Source of the DNA: Betaproteobacteria bacterium
GTDB lineage: Bacteria; Pseudomonadota; Gammaproteobacteria; Burkholderiales; SG8-41
Direction of reading: 5' to 3'
NCBI GenBank assembly: GCA_016202605.1
Contig: JACQOJ010000126.1
Coordinates: 1 to 32,981, forward strand
Length of the DNA: 32,981 bases
The notes beneath the pieces are model-generated. The model ran no database searches and had not been told where the DNA came from. It was given only the letters and a program-made list of their open reading frames with translations. The stretch's first letter is position 1, and each line of letters opens with the position of its first letter. Both the position numbers and the translations under genes were made by a program. Below, in pieces: positions 7,259 through 24,003 of the stretch.

Positions 7259-7301
7259 TAACCTTGAACCGGGTATGCGGGTCACATCGCCCGAAGAGAT
7301 C

Positions 7302-8273
7302 ATGAGAACGCCAATCGCGATAGCGGTCCTGGCCTGCGGTGCGGTCCTGTCGTCACTCGCGTGCGCGCAGCCGGCGTATCCCGCCCGGCCCGTTCGCATG
7401 CTGGTGGGATTCGCGCCCGGCGGTACGACGGACATCATCGCGCGGCTGATGGCACCGGCGTTGAGCGAATCGTTCGAGCGGCAGTTCTACGTGGAAAACC
7501 GCCCCGGCGCCACCGGCAATATCGCCACGGAGCTGGCCGCCAAGTCGCCTCCGGATGGCACCACTTTGCTCGTCGTGTCGGCCGCATTCTCGAGCAGCGT
7601 CAGCCTGTATTCAAAAATCAGCTACGACCCGATGCGCGATTTCGCGCCGATTACGCGGGTGGCCGCGGTGCATAACGTTCTCGTCGTGCATCCGTCGGTC
7701 CCGGCGAAGAGCGTCAGGGAACTGATCGCGCTCGCAAGACGCTATCCCGGGCAACTGGTGTTCGCATCACCCGGGCACGGCAGCACGCCTCACCTGGGAC
7801 TGGAATTGCTGAGGACCAGGGTGGGCGGATTCAACGTCCTGCACGTGCCTTATCGGGGCATGGCACCCGCCGTGCTCGAAGTCGTCGGTGGACAGGTGGA
7901 TGCACTCCTGTCCACCATGCCACCGGCGGTCATCCACGTCAGAAACGGCCGGTTGCGGCCCATCGCCGTGGCGAGCGTGAAGCGCGCGCGCGCGCTGCCG
8001 CATGTGCCCACTTTCGAGGAAAGCGGCATCCCGGGGTTCGAGGCTTCCGCCTGGAATGCCGTCCTCGCTCCCGCAGGCACCCCTTATGACGTCGTCACCC
8101 GCCTCAACCTGGCGGTGGTGGGCATTGCCCGGTCGCGGGAATTCCGGGAAAGGCTGGCAGGACTGGGCGCGGAAGTGATCGCCGACACGCCCGATCAATT
8201 CGCGGCTTACCTGCGAGTGGAAATCGCGAAGTGGGCGCAGGTGGTCAGGCAGAGCGGCACGAAGCTCGATTGA
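7302..8273 (+). CDS. Bug/TctC-family periplasmic substrate-binding protein (copy 2)
   Basis: A 323-residue tripartite tricarboxylate transporter receptor. Residues 1-22 form a signal peptide, cleaved before QPAYPARPVRMLVGFAPGG. The family segments ENRPGATGN, SPPDGTT, VHPSVPAKSVRELIALAR and HVPYRGMAPAV are all present. The start was set at the ATG at 7302 because GAAGAG precedes it and the signal peptide begins there. An upstream ATG at 7275 would add nine non-family residues. It lies divergent from the enolase-superfamily gene and 258 bases before the first selenoprotein gene. No membrane components are nearby. Confidence 0.95.
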   Translation: MRTPIAIAVLACGAVLSSLACAQPAYPARPVRMLVGFAPGGTTDIIARLMAPALSESFERQFYVENRPGATGNIATELAAKSPPDGTTLLVVSAAFSSSVSLYSKISYDPMRDFAPITRVAAVHNVLVVHPSVPAKSVRELIALARRYPGQLVFASPGHGSTPHLGLELLRTRVGGFNVLHVPYRGMAPAVLEVVGGQVDALLSTMPPAVIHVRNGRLRPIAVASVKRARALPHVPTFEESGIPGFEASAWNAVLAPAGTPYDVVTRLNLAVVGIARSREFRERLAGLGAEVIADTPDQFAAYLRVEIAKWAQVVRQSGTKLD

Positions 8274-8531: not shown

Positions 8532-10271
8532 ATGTCGAAAGTGAACGAGGACGGGTACTACGAGGTGTTCTGGCCGCGGGCGGCGCGGCAGACGCGCGCT
8601 AGGCCGCTCGCGCCGCGGCTCGCGTCGCTTGAAGGCAAAACGGTCGCCCAGCTCTGGGATTTCCTGTTCCGCGGCGACCGGGTTTTCGAGTTGCTGGAGG
8701 AGGGGCTCAAGGCGCGTTTTCCCGGCGTGCGCTTCGTGAGCTGGCGGGAATTCGGAAGCACGCACGGGGGAGAAGAGAAAGCGGCGCTCGCGGCGCTGCC
8801 GCAGCGCTTCAAGGAACTGGGAGTCGACGCCGTCGTCTCCGGGATGGCCTGTTGAGGGAGCTGCACGCCCGCCGTGTTGCGGGCGAGCGCGGTGTGCGAA
8901 GCGGCGGGTTATCCGACCTCCTCTCTCGTATGTGAAGGATTCATGCGCCAGGCCGCGACCACTTCGGCAGGGCTCGGCATGCCCAACATCCCGCTCGCCC
9001 TGGTACCGGGTCACGTCGGCACGCAGAACAAAGAGGAGCTGCGGCGCAACATACTCGAAGTCACGGCGCAGCGCGTGATCGACAACCTGACGGTTGCGCC
9101 GGTGGCGGTCGGTGACAAGGCGGAGCCGGGCGTCCGCGATATCGTCTTCAGGGGCGGGTTCAAGGCGGTCAACCGCTACTTCTACGAAAACGAATTTTCC
9201 GACGGCCTGCCGATCGTTCCGCCGACACGCGAGGACGTGGAATCGTTTCTCCGTTTTACCGGGCGCGACCCGGACGAAGTTCTGGGTATCCTGCTGCCCG
9301 ACAATCGCGCCGCCACCGTCTGGAGCGTCGCGGTCAACGGGGTCATGGCCGGCTGCCGCCCCGAGTACATGCCCATCCTCGTAGCCTTGATCAAGGCGAT
9401 GTGCGACCCGGAATATGGCGTGGAGCACAGCGGCAATACGCCGGGCGGCGACACGCTGATCATTCTGAACGGTCCGATCATCAAGGCGCTCGGGTTCAAC
9501 TACACGCAAGGCGCCTTGCGCGACGGGTTCATGCCGAATACTTCGATCGGCCGCTTCTGGCGTCTCTACCTGCGCAACGTGGCGGGGTTTCTCCCCCACA
9601 AGAACGACAAGGCGACATACGGCAACACCTGGCGCGTGGTGCTCGCCGAAAACGAGGATGCGCTCGCGAAGATCGGCTGGGAACCGAACAGCGTGGAAAT
9701 GGGATTCGCCGCCGGGGACAACACCGTGACCATCGCGCGCTACACCGGCGGGGGCTCGCTTTCCTCGGTGTCGGGGAGTACGCCGGAGGAGATGCTGCCG
9801 TATCTGGCGGACTCGCTGCAGAAGTTCAACAACTGGCAGATTACGTTCACCACGAGTCACGGCAACGGCATGCTGCGGCCGCTGGTGGTCGTGAGCCCCA
9901 TCATCGCCGAGACCATCGCGAAAGCGGGTTGGTCCAAGGCGGACGTCAAGCGCTACCTGTTCGAGCACGCGCGCCTGCCGGCGTGGCAGTTCGAGCGTCA
10001 GTTGCGGGACTGGAACATCCGCGGCGTGTGGGACCTGGAGGAGGACGCGCGGCTGGGACGCATCCCGAGGGTATTCCATGAATCCGACGATCCCAACCGC
10101 ATGGTGCCGATCGTCTGGGAGCCGGAAGATTTCATGATCGCGGTTTCCGGTGATCCGCTGCGCAACAACGCCTATGTCTTCGCGCACAACGGTTTCCTGG
10201 GTTACCCGGTGGGAAAGAGAATCGAGCTGCCGGAATACTGGGAGCGTCTGCTGGCGGACGGCGGGCGATAG
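8532..10271 (+). CDS. UGSC-family selenoprotein 1 (in-frame TGA at 8853-8855 read as selenocysteine)
   Basis: A 579-residue selenoprotein when TGA 8853-8855 is read as Sec108. Codons around it give GMAC-U-GSC-TPAV, the conserved [U/C]GSC motif of the family named UGSC (seleno)protein. The frame is open on both sides and the family sequence continues unbroken. A SECIS-like hairpin follows. Residues 20-200 (EGKTVAQLWDFLFRG..., SWREFGSTHGGEE, then the Sec loop and PGHVGTQNKEELRRNILEV) form one domain. From memory this resembles the Sec region of GrdB of glycine reductase (UGTC). Residues 205-579 form a second conserved domain of unknown function (SDGLPIVPPTRE, MAGCRPEYMP, HSGNTPGGDT). No signal peptide is seen, so it is probably cytoplasmic. 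An FAH-family gene follows. A thiol/selenol redox or reductive cleavage role is inferred only. Ordinary gene callers would report 8532-8855 and a false GTG start at 8874. Confidence 0.88.
8853..8885 (+). promoter_or_regulatory. SECIS-like element of selenoprotein 1
   Basis: The recoded TGA is followed by 10 bases and then a perfect 7-bp stem, CGCCCGC (8866-8872) and GCGGGCG (8879-8885), with loop CGTGTT. Bacterial SECIS hairpins, which recruit SelB, lie directly 3' of the UGA at about this distance and carry G and U in the loop. A weaker lower stem, GCTGCA with CGCGGT, can extend it. The same hairpin occurs in selenoprotein 2. Confidence 0.75.
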
Positions 10272-12734: not shown

Positions 12735-12807
12735 GATTGTCAATTCTGGAGTTAAGAGTGATTCTACGCGCTATCGCCTGTTCGATCCAGAGGGATGCCG
12801 GTAGACT
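12735..12807 (+). promoter_or_regulatory. LysR box and promoter of the Bug/OCD unit
   Basis: The element at 12735-12763 contains ATTGTCAAT (an ATTG-T-CAAT palindrome) and ends in TTAAGAGTGATT. Forty-three bases from its start comes CTGTTCGA, whose TGTTCG (12779-12784) serves as a -35, then 17 bases, then TAGACT (12802-12807) as a -10. The module from 14932 has 26 of 29 identical bases and the same spacing. An activator site at about -50 to -80 fits a LysR-type regulator. Confidence 0.65.
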
Positions 12808-12848
12808 CTCGCGGGGGCCCGGTGCGCCCAGCCACTGAGGAGAGGCCT

Positions 12849-13850
12849 GTGGAATTCAAGCACATTCACCGGTCGATTGCGGCCGCGATCGTGATTGCGG
12901 TGTGCCCCGTGCAATTTGCCACCGAAGCGCGGGCGCAGCCCGCGTGGCGTCCGGACAAGGCCGTCGAAATCATCGTGCCCACCGCGGCGGGCGGCACCAA
13001 CGACCAGATGGCGCGGCTCATGCAGAAGGTTCTGCAGGACCGGAAGCTCGTGCCGGTTCCCCTGGTGGTGATGAACAAGGCGGGCGGCAACCAGACGCTG
13101 GCGGTCGTCTACATCAACCAGCACGCCGCGGATGCGCATTACCTCCTGTACGCGACCGCGACGGTCTTCACCAATCAACTTGCCGGCCTTACGAAGCTGC
13201 ATTACGCCGAGCTCACGCCGCTCGCGCTGTTTCTCGTCGACCACAGCGTGATCACGGTGCGCGCCGACTCGCCGATGAAGAGCATGCGCGACCTGGTCGA
13301 CCGTCTCAAGGCGGACCCGGAATCCATCGCGTTCGGCATGGTCGCGCGCGGCGGGCCCAATCATCTGGCGCTCTCTCAGGCCATGCGATCGGCGGGAGTG
13401 GATCCGCGAAAACTCAAGACCGTCGTCTTCAAGACCAACGCCGAATCCATGACGGCGACGGTCGGCGGGCACATCCATGCCGTCGTGTCGTCGGTGAGCG
13501 CGGCGTTGCCCCAGGTGCTGGCGGGAAATACCCGCCTTCTCGCCATAGCGGCGCCGCAGCGGCAGACAGGTGCGGTGGCGAACGTGCCGACGTTGCGCGA
13601 GCAGGGCATCGACGCGAACGGGATCGCCAACTGGCGCGTCGCGTTCGGCGCGCAGGGGCTGGCGCCGGCGCAGATCGCATACTGGGATGAGACGCTGGCG
13701 CGGATGGTCACGGCGGACGAGTGGAAGAATCAGCTCGCGGCCAACAACGTCGCCGGACACTTTCTGCGCGGCAGGGACCTCGTGAAGTACCTCGATACCG
13801 AGTACAACGCGGCCAGGTCCGCGATGGCCGACCTCGGGCTGGTCAAGTGA
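12849..13850 (+). CDS. Bug/TctC-family periplasmic substrate-binding protein (copy 3)
   Basis: A 333-residue tripartite tricarboxylate transporter receptor, somewhat more divergent than the others (IIVPTAAGGTNDQMARLMQ, MNKAGGNQ). Residues 1-27 form a signal peptide, cleaved after an Ala-Arg-Ala site before QPAWRPDK. The start was placed at GTG 12849, which follows a GAGGAGAGG ribosome-binding site. The upstream ATG at 12795 would lie within the predicted -10 region and adds non-family residues. The OCD-family gene follows after 53 bases and is probably co-transcribed under the divergent LysR regulator. The ligand is unknown. Confidence 0.92.
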   Translation: MEFKHIHRSIAAAIVIAVCPVQFATEARAQPAWRPDKAVEIIVPTAAGGTNDQMARLMQKVLQDRKLVPVPLVVMNKAGGNQTLAVVYINQHAADAHYLLYATATVFTNQLAGLTKLHYAELTPLALFLVDHSVITVRADSPMKSMRDLVDRLKADPESIAFGMVARGGPNHLALSQAMRSAGVDPRKLKTVVFKTNAESMTATVGGHIHAVVSSVSAALPQVLAGNTRLLAIAAPQRQTGAVANVPTLREQGIDANGIANWRVAFGAQGLAPAQIAYWDETLARMVTADEWKNQLAANNVAGHFLRGRDLVKYLDTEYNAARSAMADLGLVK

Positions 13851-17053: not shown

Positions 17054-18061
17054 ATGACAGTGAAGACCCCGCGCATTGGCATAATGCTGCCGCTTCGGGG
17101 AACGTTCCGCATGCTTGGAGTGGCCGCCCTGTGCCTCCTTGCCACTGGAGCGCTTGCCGCCGGCTATCCGGATCGTCCCGTGCGGCTCGTCGTGCCGTCG
17201 CCGCCGGGCGGCGGCACGGATACCACGACACGCATGATCGCGCCGAAATTGAGCGAGATCCTGGGCCAGCAACTGGTCATCGACAACCGCGGCGGGGCGG
17301 CGGGCAATATCGGCGCCGAGATCGTGGCGCGCGCGGCACCCGATGGCTATACGCTGCTTGCCTGCATCGCCTCGCATACCAGCAACCCGGCGGTGATGAA
17401 AAAAGTCGGCTACGACCTGGAGCGCGACTTTGCGCCCATTTCCCTGATGGTGAAGGTCCCCAATATCCTGATCTCGCATCCCTCGCTGCCGGCGAAGAAC
17501 ATCAAGGAATTGATCGCGTTTGCCAGGGCGCGGCCCGGGCAACTGCAGTTCGCCTCGGCGGGCCTGGGCAGCGCTCCCCATTTGATGATGGAACTCTTTG
17601 CGAGCATGGCGGGATTGAAGATGATCCACGTGCCGTACAAGGGCGCGGGGCCCGCGCTCACCGACGTCATCGCCGGTCACGTGCCGATTTTTGCCGGCAA
17701 CATCCTGAGCACGCTGCCGCACGTCAAGGCGGGACGTGTACGCGCATACGGCGTGACCAGTGCCAGGCGCTCGACGGCTGCGCCGGAAATTCCCGCGATC
17801 GCCGAAGGCGGATTGACGGGTTACGAGGCGGTCACGTGGTTCGGGCTGCTCGTTCCCGCCGGCACGCCGCGCGAGATCGTCATGCGGTTGCACGGCGCTG
17901 TGGTGGGTGCACTGGAAGACCCGGCCGTGAAGCAGCGCTTCATCAACGACGGCGCGGAACCGAAACCGAGCAGTTCCCCCGAAGAGTTCCGCGAGTTCAT
18001 GCGCGCCGAAACCAAAAAGTGGGCGAAGGTGATCAGGGACTCCGGCATGAAGCGCGAGTGA
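17054..18061 (+). CDS. Bug/TctC-family periplasmic substrate-binding protein (copy 4)
   Basis: A 335-residue tripartite tricarboxylate transporter receptor. It has a long signal peptide of about 35 residues, with the hydrophobic core MLGVAALCLLATGALA cleaved before GYPDRPVRLVVPSPPGGGTD. IDNRGGAAGN, HPSLPAKNIKELIAFAR and HVPYKGAGPALTD are family-typical. GAGGAGGAAG precedes the ATG. It is the last gene of the unit started by the LysR-type promoter at 14932, downstream of two DapA-family genes, which suggests that it captures their substrate or a precursor. Confidence 0.95.
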   Translation: MTVKTPRIGIMLPLRGTFRMLGVAALCLLATGALAAGYPDRPVRLVVPSPPGGGTDTTTRMIAPKLSEILGQQLVIDNRGGAAGNIGAEIVARAAPDGYTLLACIASHTSNPAVMKKVGYDLERDFAPISLMVKVPNILISHPSLPAKNIKELIAFARARPGQLQFASAGLGSAPHLMMELFASMAGLKMIHVPYKGAGPALTDVIAGHVPIFAGNILSTLPHVKAGRVRAYGVTSARRSTAAPEIPAIAEGGLTGYEAVTWFGLLVPAGTPREIVMRLHGAVVGALEDPAVKQRFINDGAEPKPSSSPEEFREFMRAETKKWAKVIRDSGMKRE

Positions 18062-18706: not shown

Positions 18707-20461
18707 ATGGCGAACTCCAGGAAAGAGCAATACGCGGCGTTGTGGCCGCGCAGCCCGCGCCAGGTCGAGTTGAAGCCGCTCTCCAGGCGGCTCGATACGC
18801 TCGCAGGCAAGACCGTCGCGCAGCTCTGGGATTATGTATTTCGCGGCGACGAAGTGTTCGAACTGCTCGAGGAGGGGCTCAAGGCGCGTTTTCCCGGCAT
18901 TCGCTTCGTGAGCTGGCGCGAGTTCGGCAGCACGCACGGCGGCGAAGAGCACGAGGTGGTGGCTTCGTTGCCGCGGCGCTTCAGGGAACTGGGGGTCGAT
19001 GCCGTCGTCTCGGGCATGGGCTGCTGAGGAAGCTGCACGCCCGCCGTGTTGCGGGCGAGTGCGGCAAGCGAGAGCGCAGGGGTGGCGTCCTCGACGCTCG
19101 TGTGCGAAGGGTTTCTCGGACTTGCTGCCGCGTCTTCCGTCGGGCTCGGGATGCCGAACCTGCCGGTCGCGCTGGTGCCCGGGCACACCGGCGTGCAAAG
19201 CAAGGAAGTACTCCGGCGCAACATCCTCGAAGTGACGCTCGATCGCGTGGTGGACAATCTGCTTGCCGCTCCCCAGGCAGCGGCCGCCGACACCGAGCCC
19301 GGTGCGCGCGATGTGGTGTTCAGGGGCGGCTTCGAGGAGGTCAATGAATTTTTTTACGACAACGAGCTGTCCGACGGGCTGCCGATCGTGCCGCCCACCC
19401 GGGAAAAAGTCGAGGAGTTCCTGCGGTTCACCGACCGCGGTGCGGATGAGGTCCTCGGAATCCTGCTTCCCGACAGCCGCGCCGCCACGATCTGGAGCAT
19501 CGCGGTGAACGGCGTGATGGCGGGCTGCAGACCGGAATACATGCCGGTGCTCGTCGCGCTGATCGAGGCCATGGCGGATCCGTATTACGGCGTCGAGCAC
19601 AGCGGCAACACGCCGGGCGGGGAAACGCTCATTCTGCTCAATGGGCCGGTCATCAAGGAGCTTGGCTTCAATTACACGCAAGGCGTCATGCGCGACGGAT
19701 TCCGGCCCAACACGTCGATCGGCCGGTTCTGGCGACTTTATCTGCGCAACGTCGCCGGATTCCTGCCGCACAAGAACGACAAGGCGACTTTTGGAAACAC
19801 CTGGCGCGTGGTCGTCGCGGAAAACGAAGACGTCCTGAAGAAGATCGGGTGGGAGCCTAACTGCGTGGACATGGGATACCCGGCGGGCGCAAACACGGTC
19901 ACGATCGCGCGCTACACCGGCGGCAATCACATCTCGTCCGTATCCGGCAGCACGCCGGAGCAGATGCTGCCCTATCTCGCCGACGGCATGGTCAAGCAGT
20001 ACTCGTGGCAGATCATGTTCACCGTCGGCCAGGGCATGGGCACCTTGCGGCCGCTGGTCCTGCTGTCGCCGATACTTGCCGAGACCATGGCTGCCGGGGG
20101 CTGGTCGAGGAACGAGCTCAAGCGCCAGCTCTTCGAGCACGCGCGCATGCCGGCGTGGCAGTTCGAGCGCTATCTCCGTGACTGGACGATGAAGCCCACG
20201 TGGGATCTCGGGCAGGAGGTGAAGCTCGGGCGCATCCCGAAGGTCTTCCACGAGTCGGACGATCCCGACCGCATGGTGCCGCTGGTGTGGGAACCCGATG
20301 ATTACATGATCGCGGTGACCGGCGACCTGATGCGCAACAGCGCCTACATCTTCGCCCACAACGGCGTGCTGGGTTATCCGGTCGGCAGGGAGATCAGGCT
20401 GCCGAAAAACTGGAAGACGCTCATCACCGGCGTGAAGGGCAGGCATGGCGCAGCGTCGTAG
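18707..20461 (+). CDS. UGSC-family selenoprotein 2 (in-frame TGA at 19025-19027 read as selenocysteine)
   Basis: A 584-residue paralogue of the protein at 8532-10271. TGA 19025-19027 encodes Sec107 in GMGC-U-GSC-TPAV. The two proteins are closely similar along their whole length, for example SWREFGSTHGGEE, LGMPNLPVALVPGH, SDGLPIVPPTRE, MAGCRPEYMP and FLPHKNDKATFGNTWRVV. The same SECIS-like hairpin follows the TGA. The ATG at 18707 is preceded by AAGGGCGAG. Its 3' end overlaps by 17 bases the start of a thioredoxin reductase-like gene, so the pair is translationally linked. This suggests the Sec/Cys centre is reduced by that flavoprotein, as GrdB-type selenoproteins depend on a thioredoxin system (analogy, not proof). 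The substrate is unknown. A gene caller would end the protein at residue 106 and restart it at GTG 19046. Confidence 0.88.
19025..19065 (+). promoter_or_regulatory. SECIS-like element of selenoprotein 2
   Basis: Ten bases after the TGA, CGCCCGC (19038-19044) pairs with GCGGGCG (19051-19057) around loop CGTGTT. A lower stem, GCTGCA (19032-19037) with TGCGGC (19060-19065, one G-T wobble), extends it past a 2-base AG bulge to 13 bp. Stem and loop are identical to those of selenoprotein 1. Confidence 0.75.
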
Positions 20462-21374
20462 GCGCGACATCTGGGACCTGGTGGTGGTCGGCGGCGGCAT
20501 CGCCGGGCTCACCGCGGCGTGGCACGCGGCCCGGCGCGGGCTCGCGGCGGCGCTGTTCGAAGCGCAGCCGGGATGCGGCGGACAGGTGGCCACCGTCAAC
20601 GTCCTGGACGACTGGCCCGCCGCCGGTCCGGCGTCGGGTGTCGAACTTGCCGCCGCGCTGGTCGCGAAGTTGCACGCCGAGGCGGTGGAGTTGTTCCACG
20701 AACCGGTGACGCACGTGATGCATGGCAACGGCGTGCTGCTGGTGGAAGCGCAGCACCGCACCCTGCGCGCGCGGCGGATCGTCGCGGCGTCGGGCGCGCG
20801 GCTGCGCGCGCTCGGCGTGCCGGGGGAAGATGCGCTGCGCGGCAGGGGCGTGTCGCAATGCGCTCACTGTGACGGGCATTTCTTCCGCGGCCGGGATGTG
20901 ATCGTGGTGGGCGGCGGCGATGCGGCGCTGCAGGAGGCGCTGGTATTGTCGGAGCTGTGCCGCTCGGTGAGTATCGTCGCGCGCGCGCGGCTGCGCGCGC
21001 GGCGCGGCTTCGTCGAACGCGCGGTCGGCAAGACCAACGTGCGGTTTATCTGGGATTCGGTAGTTGAAGCCGTGCTCGGCAGCGGCGCGGTGACGGGCGT
21101 GCGCCTGCGCAACGTCGGGGACGGAACGTCCACCGAGATTGCGTGTTCCGGCGTATTTCCCTTCGTCGGCGTGGAACCCGCTTCGGCGTTTCTCCCGCAG
21201 GCGATGAGGCGCGACGGGGCGGGACGCGTGATGACCGACGAGCGCTGCCGCACCAGCGAACCCGCGGTATTCGCCATCGGCGCGCTGCGCTCGGGCTATG
21301 CCGGCGATCTCGTGAGCGCGGTGGGCGAAGCGGCGCTTGCGGTTGCCGGCATAGCCGATGATCTGGAGAACTGA
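20445..21374 (+). CDS. Thioredoxin reductase-like FAD/NAD(P)H oxidoreductase
   Basis: A 309-residue low-molecular-weight thioredoxin reductase-type flavoprotein. The FAD site is VVVGGGIAGLTAAWHAA at about 13-29 and the NAD(P)H site VVGGGDAALQEAL at 154-166. The redox-active pair is Cys139 and Cys142 in SQCAHCDGHFF; most thioredoxin reductases have CATC or CAVC here. The C-terminal FAD segment reads VFAIGALRSGYAGDLVSAVGEAALA, where classical enzymes have a GD motif, so the flavin contact is altered (GA). The ATG lies 17 bases inside the end of selenoprotein 2, implying coupled translation. Its likely job is to pass electrons from NAD(P)H, directly or through thioredoxin, to the UGSC centre. 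A house-keeping TrxB role is less likely given the context. Confidence 0.9.
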   Translation: MAQRRRRDIWDLVVVGGGIAGLTAAWHAARRGLAAALFEAQPGCGGQVATVNVLDDWPAAGPASGVELAAALVAKLHAEAVELFHEPVTHVMHGNGVLLVEAQHRTLRARRIVAASGARLRALGVPGEDALRGRGVSQCAHCDGHFFRGRDVIVVGGGDAALQEALVLSELCRSVSIVARARLRARRGFVERAVGKTNVRFIWDSVVEAVLGSGAVTGVRLRNVGDGTSTEIACSGVFPFVGVEPASAFLPQAMRRDGAGRVMTDERCRTSEPAVFAIGALRSGYAGDLVSAVGEAALAVAGIADDLEN

Positions 21375-21429
21375 CGGGATCTTCCCGCGCGGCACGGTGG
21401 CAAGAGAACAATTTTCGAGGAGAGCGAGC

Positions 21430-22407
21430 TTGAAGCGTTACCGAATCGGCGTAATTGCAGCGATTACCCTGACTCTTGTTGCGGCATTACCGGCATGGGC
21501 GCAGTCATATCCCGGCCGCGTGGTCCGGTTCGTCGTGCCGCTGAGCGCCGGTGGCGCCGGCGACATCGTCGCTCGCACGGTTGCTGCGAAATTCTCGGAG
21601 ATGTGGGGCCAGCAGGTGGTGATCGATAATCGTCCCGGCGCGAATACCATCATCGGAACCGAATTTGCGGCCCGGGCCAAGCCTGACGGCTACACATGGC
21701 TGCTGGGCGTGCAGGGCAGTCTTGCGATCAATCCCGCGTTTTATTCGAAGCTTCCGTACGATGCGGTGAGCGATTTCGATCCGGTCACTCAGCTCACCCG
21801 CTACGGCTACGTGCTCGTGGTGCATCCGTCCTTGCCCGTGAAAAGCGTGCGCGAACTGATCGTGCTCGCGAAGGATCGCCCCGGGGCTCTGGCGTACGGC
21901 ACCTCAGGCACGGGCGGTTCCAATCATCTCGCCGGCGAGTCGTTCCGCCTGGCGGTGGGTATCGACATGACGCCGGTCGCGTACAAGGGCAGCGCACCGG
22001 CGCTGACCGCGCTGTTGTCCGGCGAGACATCGCTGATGTTCGACACGCTCATCACGTCCATCCCGCAGCTCAAGGCACGGCGCATCCGCGCGCTCGCCGT
22101 GACCCTCGCCCAACGGTCGAGCTCGCTTCCCGAGGTACCGACCATCGCAGAGTCCGGCGTGCCGGGATACCGGTTCGAGGCGTGGCAATCGATCGTCGTT
22201 CCGGCTGGCACCAGCAGGGGAATCATCGGGAAGATCTACTCCGATGCGCTCAAGGTTCTGGCACTGTCCGATGTGCGCCGCAAGCTGGTCGACGAGGGCG
22301 CGAATGAACTCGTCGGATCGAAGCCGCAGGAGTTCGCGAAGCGCATCCGTGCCGACATCGAACGCTATCGCAGGTTGATTCGAGATGCCCGCATCGAGAC
22401 GCGGTAA
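21430..22407 (+). CDS. Bug/TctC-family periplasmic substrate-binding protein (copy 5)
   Basis: A 325-residue tripartite tricarboxylate transporter receptor. The start was set at TTG 21430: GAGGAGAG lies 5 bases before it and the signal peptide MKRYRIGVIAAITLTLVAAL begins there, cleaved after Ala-Trp-Ala before QSYPGRVVRFVVP. An upstream ATG at 21358 overlaps the reductase gene and would add a non-family leader. IDNRPGANTIIG, HPSLPVKSVRELIVLAK and PVAYKGSAPAL are family-typical. It follows the thioredoxin reductase-like gene by 55 bases, so it probably belongs to the selenoprotein 2 unit and may import its substrate. Confidence 0.94.
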   Translation: MKRYRIGVIAAITLTLVAALPAWAQSYPGRVVRFVVPLSAGGAGDIVARTVAAKFSEMWGQQVVIDNRPGANTIIGTEFAARAKPDGYTWLLGVQGSLAINPAFYSKLPYDAVSDFDPVTQLTRYGYVLVVHPSLPVKSVRELIVLAKDRPGALAYGTSGTGGSNHLAGESFRLAVGIDMTPVAYKGSAPALTALLSGETSLMFDTLITSIPQLKARRIRALAVTLAQRSSSLPEVPTIAESGVPGYRFEAWQSIVVPAGTSRGIIGKIYSDALKVLALSDVRRKLVDEGANELVGSKPQEFAKRIRADIERYRRLIRDARIETR

Positions 22408-23025: not shown

Positions 23026-24003
23026 ATGAAGATTTCAGCCCTGCTGTTTTTCGTGGCACTTCTTGCGGGCACGGCGTTCCTGCCCGCCACGGGCGACGCG
23101 CAGACGTATCCCGAGAAACCGGTACGCGTGGTCGTGCCGTTCCCGGCGGGCGGTGCCGCCGACATCGTGGCGCGCCACGTCGCCCAGAAGCTCGGCGAGG
23201 CGTTCGGCGCCCAGCTCATCGTGGACAACCGCGCCGGCGCCGGCGGTGCGATCGGAGCGGAGCACGTCATGCGCGCTGCGGCGGACGGATACACGCTGCT
23301 TTTCGCGTCCTCCAGCGTGCTTTCGATCAACCCGCATCTCAGCGCCAAGTCATCCTACGATCCGTTGCGCAGCTTCACGCCGGTGATCCTGGTGGGCCAC
23401 GCGCCGAACGTGCTCGTCGTTCATCCGTCCGTGCCCGCGAAATCGGTCAGGGAACTCATTGCGCTCGCCAAGAAACAGCCGGATGCCCTCGCTTTCGCGT
23501 CCAACGGCGCCGGCACGCTGAGCCATCTTACGGGAGAGCTGTTCATGCAGCGCGCAGGGATCAGGATGCTGCACGTCCCGTACAAGGGAGCTGCGCCCGC
23601 GGTGATCGACACGATTGCGGGCAACGTATCCGTGCTGTTCGCCGCCTATCCCAGTGTCTCGGCGCAGGAGCGGGCAGGGAAACTGAAGGCGCTCGCCGTT
23701 ACCAGCGCGAAGCGCGTCGCGATCGCTCCCCAGCTTCCCACCGTGGCCGAGGCCGCGTTACCCGGCTTCGAATCGAGCCAATGGTGGGGTCTCTACGGCC
23801 CGGCGGGGATGCCGGCCGGTATCGTCACGCGTCTTAACACGGAACTCAACAAAATTTTCCGCACGCCGGAAATCAGGCAACGCCTCGCTGCGGACGGCGC
23901 GGAGCCGGCCGGCGGCACGCCGGCCGGACTTGCGGCGTACCATCGGGCCGATTACGACAAATGGGGCAAAGTGATCGGTGCGGCGGGCCTCAGGCGCAAC
24001 TGA
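23026..24003 (+). CDS. Bug/TctC-family periplasmic substrate-binding protein (copy 6)
   Basis: A 325-residue tripartite tricarboxylate transporter receptor. Residues 1-25 form a signal peptide (ISALLFFVALLAGTAFL), cleaved before QTYPEKPVRVVVPFPAGGAAD. VDNRAGAGGAIG, HPSVPAKSVRELIALAK and HVPYKGAAPAVID match the family. GAGGAGGACC precedes the ATG. The enolase-superfamily gene starts 34 bases after its stop. This repeats the pairing of a Bug receptor with an enolase-superfamily enzyme seen at 5953-8273, though here the two are co-directional rather than divergent. Confidence 0.95.
   Translation: MKISALLFFVALLAGTAFLPATGDAQTYPEKPVRVVVPFPAGGAADIVARHVAQKLGEAFGAQLIVDNRAGAGGAIGAEHVMRAAADGYTLLFASSSVLSINPHLSAKSSYDPLRSFTPVILVGHAPNVLVVHPSVPAKSVRELIALAKKQPDALAFASNGAGTLSHLTGELFMQRAGIRMLHVPYKGAAPAVIDTIAGNVSVLFAAYPSVSAQERAGKLKALAVTSAKRVAIAPQLPTVAEAALPGFESSQWWGLYGPAGMPAGIVTRLNTELNKIFRTPEIRQRLAADGAEPAGGTPAGLAAYHRADYDKWGKVIGAAGLRRN

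Follow-up and report, generated by a model that had tools for sequence, protein, structure and literature searches.

The segment at positions 8532–10271 of the window, by which we mean the whole stretch of 32,981 nucleotides analysed here (contig C102 of a 2.8-Mb MAG that is 73.7% complete), is very probably one selenoprotein gene, which the standard code splits into two frames as if its 579 residues were broken by a stop. By computation we find this selenoprotein gene and the hairpin that follows its in-frame TGA, the selenocysteine (Sec) machinery in the same genome, the pairing of the UGSC domain with a partner domain, and a radiation of UGSC genes among related bacteria. The family and the fusion of the two domains are known; what this analysis adds is the rule by which UGSC and its partner are paired, together with the size of the radiation.

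Reading through the TGA at codon 108

Two open frames, 8532–8855 and 8874–10271, lie in phase with each other on the + strand, as the preliminary description stated, and translating the TGA at 8853–8855 as Sec joins them into a protein of 579 residues (...GMAC-U-GSCTPAV...) whose sole other stop is the final TAG. The Cys-Sec-Gly-Ser-Cys motif described at the junction is confirmed in this translation, with Sec as residue 108. The run of 471 open codons that follows the TGA has a probability of about 6e-6 of arising by chance, as calculated from base composition alone. The features of the predicted gene are as follows.

8532–10271, + strand: coding sequence of the predicted UGSC/Unknown_1 fusion selenoprotein, 579 residues from ATG to TAG with the TGA read through
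8853–8855, + strand: predicted Sec codon 108 (TGA), then Gly-Ser-Cys, from the translation and the alignment of relatives' loci
8861–8892, + strand: SECIS-type hairpin of 12 consensus pairs with the loop CGUGUU at 8873–8878, 5 nt after the TGA

Comparison with relatives provides further insight into this codon. Scanning species genomes with peptide patterns lying outside the UGSC motif yields 19 relatives' loci, with protein identities of 65–89% over the best segment, and every one of the 17 loci that extend over the site has TGA at the codon aligned with 108; the partial loci L037 and L038 end short of it and are left out of this count. Homologues do not consistently stop at codon 108, as all 17 of the covering loci read on in frame, and a distant homologue from the same order (L077) aligns with a Cys at residue 108 (LSDCGSCT). 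Residues 108–111 are invariant across alignment A1 (36 UGSC proteins), which is no independent test because the rows of A1 were chosen by the UGSC pattern, and the motif variants U-G-A-C and U-G-G-C turn up in wider sampling. Several relatives have peculiarities of their own. In L035 another in-frame TGA occurs at codon 369 and the partner domain is disrupted beyond the Sec site, possibly by a frameshift; L031 departs from the family alignment near its end and has a divergent C-terminus, possibly again by a frameshift; and the additional stops of L025 fall outside its gene. L026 and L027, relatives at 75% identity, lie in MAG records titled Bordetella parapertussis, titles that give the impression of being misassigned.

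A hairpin had been reported directly after the TGA, and it is indeed present at 8861–8892 and backed by comparison among relatives. Counting stem positions from the T of the TGA, 97.5% of the 240 cells of the stem 9–20/27–40 are paired (20 sequences), and pairing drops to 22–56% when the partner strand is slid along. Two pairs are replaced by other pairs, G15-C32 by A-U and C9-G40 by U-A, and as both double changes are confined to L033 and L034, two paralogous genes in one MAG, they may reflect a single history. Shuffles match the number of pairs changed on both sides in 83 of 500 cases and the covariation score in 2 of 500, and the covariation of the hairpin is modest. The pair A13-U36 is broken in 4 sequences including the window, and L027 and L036 each break one pair. 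In a scan of synonymous codons in 13-codon windows, from which those with codon 108 were left out, codons 109–121 have a same-codon fraction of 0.734, the mean being 0.560 (sd 0.062; 18 sequences), and the four most conserved of these windows begin at codons 109–112. When single sequences are folded the hairpin is no stabler than its shuffles (z of −1.3 to +0.2 in four windows), so we take conservation as the evidence for it instead; no Rfam family reaches its gathering threshold anywhere in the window.

The supposition that SelA/B/C/D are encoded elsewhere in the genome holds for three of the four: contig C48 carries tRNA-Sec (77.7 bits, UCA anticodon), selB (444 bits) and selA (587 bits), so that selB and tRNA-Sec are both encoded in the same genome as the candidate selenoprotein. 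The fourth, selD, stays below its cut-off, with a best match in the 73.7%-complete MAG of 51.6 bits against 125. As selD exceeds the cut-off in 34 of 40 genomes (the window's own included in the 40), among them 4/4 other members of the genus, we read its absence as assembly incompleteness. The selD gene itself carries one in-frame TGA in 25 of these 34 genomes.

Two other readings of the TGA have to be weighed, both of which we consider extremely improbable. If it were a true stop, the segment would hold a short gene (8532–8855) and a second, independent gene starting at GTG (8874–10271), or else a decayed pseudogene, and translation table 11 does yield two ORFs, the second of them from GTG 8874. 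However, this GTG forms part of the hairpin loop and falls within the UGSC domain, the protein is conserved across the TGA in every covering locus, the Cys homologue reads through, the Sec machinery is encoded, and the window's genome has 8 UGSC matches only, each holding one TGA. If instead the TGA were decoded as another amino acid, such as Trp, or Cys by near-cognate readthrough, the inserted residue would not be discernible from sequence alone, but the genome encodes tRNA-Sec, SelB and SelA, the codon is followed by a conserved hairpin, Cys occupies the site in L077, and UGSC-motif proteins are among the selenoproteins reported, in the available part of PMC5330540, in Geodermatophilaceae, where the anticodon of tRNA-Sec is CUA and the selenoprotein genes, UGSC-motif ones included, have the matching codon. 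We strongly infer that Sec is inserted at UGA108.

The UGSC domain and its partner

The two domains of the predicted protein, and the one near-universal Cys of the second, are located as follows.

8562–9089, + strand: UGSC domain, residues 11–186; Pfam match, modelled as Rossmann-like in order
9132–10268, + strand: C-terminal partner domain; no Pfam/NCBIfam family, confident model (pTM 0.91)
9354–9356, + strand: codon of Cys275, the partner domain's one near-universal Cys (64/66 sequences)

Assignment to the UGSC family, already proposed in the preliminary description, is upheld by Pfam (PF24696, 102.1 bits against a cut-off of 25) and not by NCBIfam (NF041046, 42.3 against 125); the latter cut-off is cleared by a short paralogue, L012, with 134 bits. 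The UGSC family and a UGSC/Unknown_1 fusion were printed in 2008, as the accessible part of PMC2398784 has it, and a table of 2016, in the accessible part of PMC5029168, gives 33 UGSC-containing selenoproteins from 26 organisms, printed as 'UGSC-containing protein' without a function. Together with the Geodermatophilaceae reports, these show that this kind of protein was already known. The window protein has in common with the family (PF24696/NF041046) the UGSC motif, the in-frame UGA and the Pfam score, but represents a divergent fused subfamily with an extra Cys (CUGSC) and a C-terminal domain of about 380 residues. Within the portions available of the literature surveyed on UGSC, selenoproteomes, groundwater selenoproteins and selenoproteins linked to tripartite tricarboxylate transport, which takes in PMC9312934, PMC7539508, PMC9402790 and PMC12013277 besides the papers cited here, there is no function, no betaproteobacterial radiation and no partner rule beyond the 2008 fusion.

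The AlphaFold2 model (pLDDT 82, pTM 0.82) arranges residues 37–187 as five strands alternating with helices, and places Sec108 directly after the strand 100–106 and Cys111 at the opening of the helix 111–124. Rossmann-like chains align to the UGSC model with Z up to 10.3, the fold being a common one, and the domain is thus modelled as Rossmann-like in the order of its strands and helices. Foldseek with the whole model finds nothing at E <= 0.001, and sequence searches of solved structures with alignments A1, A3 and A5 find no convincing relative. The 50 matches listed for the UGSC model against structures contain no thioredoxin, an outcome compatible with either fold. A thioredoxin-like fold was expected for UGSC in the 2008 text, so far as PMC2398784 is available, and the fusion would then be a general thiol oxidoreductase of thioredoxin type, as suggested at that time, and not a catabolic enzyme resembling GrdB/PrdB. 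The UxxC motif and the thioredoxin-reductase-like (TrxR-like) gene beside the second copy described below would suit such a function, which we nevertheless consider unlikely: the predicted five strands alternating with helices and their Rossmann-like matches point elsewhere, and tens of paralogues in one genome, TctC enrichment and neighbours from carboxylate metabolism fit substrate-specific enzymes better.

It is likely, but unproven, that UGSC is remotely related to PrdB/GrdB, with which it has a weak in-register resemblance around Sec. In NCBIfam the window protein weakly matches PrdB (E 0.004, 16.6 bits against a cut-off of 300) and a short paralogue weakly matches GrdB (E 0.002), and hhalign against 10 PrdB-like proteins from related genomes places Sec on Sec at E 8e-4 to 4e-3, with probabilities of 9–24%. 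With a threshold of 8 bits, a PrdB-like HMM picks out 9 of 56 UGSC proteins (8–13 bits) and 2 of 11,256 decoys, the nine being fused proteins that are mutually close relatives. UGSC shares with PrdB (TIGR04483) and GrdB (PF07355) a Sec-x-x-Cys-Thr after a GVDAV-type strand, Sec being aligned with Sec in the profiles, but the UGSC protein lies far under the cut-offs of these families and has another partner domain. A candidate PrdB-like selenoprotein with one in-frame TGA occurs in the window's own genome (G000:C73:14286-14864), and the PrdB-like model has matches in 19/40 genomes, some of the weak ones probably being UGSC genes.

By its architecture the partner domain is probably the 'Unknown_1' of PMC2398784, the available part of which describes UGSC likewise joined to a conserved uncharacterised domain in what is very probably the same architecture. 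Searched against Pfam and NCBIfam, the domain gives scattered weak matches and nothing more, and the best match of its sequence to solved structures is thioredoxin reductase (E 0.016, 56 profile positions). Its invariant residues are D224, G225, P227, R341, N349 and E373. For the model of the partner domain, Foldseek fills its top 23 places with fumarate hydratases from Leishmania major and Methanocaldococcus jannaschii (best E 6e-4), which we take to be class I, and the domain could on this basis be a class I Fe-S fumarase-like dehydratase served by the UGSC domain. We consider this highly improbable, as the Foldseek matches have TM-scores of 0.17–0.29 and an rmsd of 16 Angstrom or more, VIA-align gives a Z of 4.3–4.7 at 5–6 Angstrom, and hhalign gives a probability of 0.1% against 14 fumarases (PF05681). 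Class I fumarases have three Cys cluster ligands, whereas the partner domain has one near-universal Cys; the kinship suggested by Foldseek is not borne out by VIA-align, by hhalign or by this count.

Whether fused or next door, the partner domain is near-obligate for UGSC. Among 84 UGSC sites in the loci analysed, counted with the pattern U-G-[S/A/G]-C, 32 are fused to the partner domain and 52 are short, and 48 of the 52 short sites have a partner domain nearby on the same strand (32 upstream, 14 downstream and 2 both). In L057 and L060 the partner domain is cut by the edge of the locus, and in L103 and L111 none is seen in the fetched DNA. The same rule is evident across the whole genome of a relative from the same family (G005; 98% complete, 2% contaminated), where a same-strand partner match lies no more than 400 nt away from 57 of the 58 UGSC matches. 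This genome has 62 partner matches, 8 of which are left over by a nearest-gap rule; two of the leftovers, C52 and C101, adjoin another UGSC gene, which leaves 6 on their own. In the window's genome 7 of the 8 UGSC matches have a partner, and the eighth (C119) is at a contig end. Compared with the fusion of 2008, the partner is here near-obligate also when unfused, occurs in both gene orders, and is greatly amplified.

Radiation and genomic neighbourhood

UGSC matches are found in 74/74 genomes searched of the window's taxonomic family, with a count for each genome that ranges between 1 and at least 40. When 300 genomes are drawn from the order, 32 have UGSC matches, 29 of them over the cut-off, and outside the taxonomic family the same draw gives matches in 22/290 genomes. 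The 58 matches of G005 comprise 51 in which a single TGA is the sole stop, 3 in which a TGA is accompanied by another stop, and 4 with none; in this genome the TGA was checked at the motif for 34 distinct sites, those in fetched DNA only. Identity among the 34 sampled copies is at most 75%, with a median of 30%, which makes them paralogues rather than strain duplicates. Counted over three families, candidate selenoprotein genes in G005 come to at least 55 (51 UGSC, 3 PrdB-like with TGA and 1 selD with TGA); one more PrdB-like match, overlapping a UGSC gene, is left out. The selenoproteome records cited in the available part of PMC13188914 are 57 for Olavius algarvensis Delta 1 and 63 for a Methylomirabilota MAG, both of which, like G005, have more than 50 selenoprotein genes per genome; what sets G005 apart from these large selenoproteomes is that UGSC alone supplies its 51 single-TGA matches without other stop.

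The label 'protein 1' in the preliminary description implied a second UGSC gene, which is real and is about 72% identical to the first. It and the genes discussed below are located in the window as follows.

7275–8273, + strand: TctC (tripartite tricarboxylate transporter receptor) gene, directly upstream of the first UGSC gene
17054–18061, + strand: TctC receptor gene, upstream of the second UGSC gene
18707–20461, + strand: second predicted UGSC/Unknown_1 fusion selenoprotein, 584 residues, with Sec codon 19025–19027 and hairpin 19033–19064
20445–21374, + strand: TrxR-like flavoprotein with CAHC (CxxC); TIGR01292 at 242 bits, below the cut-off of 343
89–1060, 12795–13850, 21358–22407 and 23026–24003: further TctC receptor genes

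The last 17 nt of the second UGSC gene are shared with the TrxR-like gene, and a gene of this kind follows UGSC in the window and in 2 of the 19 relatives' loci only (L032 and L036). TctC accounts for 36 of 83 genes flanking 53 UGSC units but for only 53 of the remaining 254 genes in these loci (P = 1e-4), with genes called by our own script and TctC recognised by similarity to one window protein. The commonest Pfam families among 80 further neighbours are MmgE/PrpD (9), CoA-transferase III (7), FAD_binding_2 (4) and acyl-CoA dehydrogenase (4), and the window also encodes aconitase, MR/MLE (aldarate-dehydratase-like), DHDPS and FAH proteins. The density of TctC receptor genes in the window, six within 33 kb, is high.

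A possible two-part selenoenzyme

From these observations we infer a function as a Sec-dependent reductase-like enzyme of carboxylate catabolism, and what follows on the chemistry, the substrate class and the electron route of the UGSC/partner enzyme is to be understood in the same way. SelB and Sec-tRNA(UCA) very probably decode UGA108 as Sec, guided by the adjacent 3' hairpin. The UGSC domain has a predicted Sec-x-x-Cys redox pair, and the C-terminal domain is a fused copy of a partner that is elsewhere encoded next door. Sec108, just before a helix, may be the selenolate that acts on a carboxylated substrate held together with the partner domain, Cys111 may resolve the selenenyl-sulfide, and a TrxR-like flavoprotein such as that beside the second copy may re-reduce the enzyme, in a logic like that of the proline and glycine reductases. 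We put forward this reductase-like chemistry, with its selenolate at 108, resolving Cys111, shared substrate site and TrxR-like reduction, as the likeliest, though tentative, scheme, whose chances we rate at somewhat less than even. A UGSC-like fusion (L157) keeps a Cys at 108 without the second Cys, and two others (L158 and L159) have neither motif residue, yet in each the partner domain is still joined; the motif residues lost in these three proteins argue against a fixed need for both redox residues.

More speculative again, though worth considering, is the notion that UGSC and its partner make up an undescribed two-part class of selenoenzyme, in which a UGSC domain remotely related to PrdB/GrdB is combined with a new fold. 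Within this betaproteobacterial family the class would have expanded together with TctC receptors for the use of diverse organic acids, some genomes having come to hold tens of paralogues, each specific to its substrate. If this were true, the UGSC/partner radiation would be the largest single-family use of Sec known. The many single-TGA UGSC matches in G005, the fixed partner and the TctC neighbours make the function approachable, and the cost of using Sec tens of times per genome becomes a direct question.
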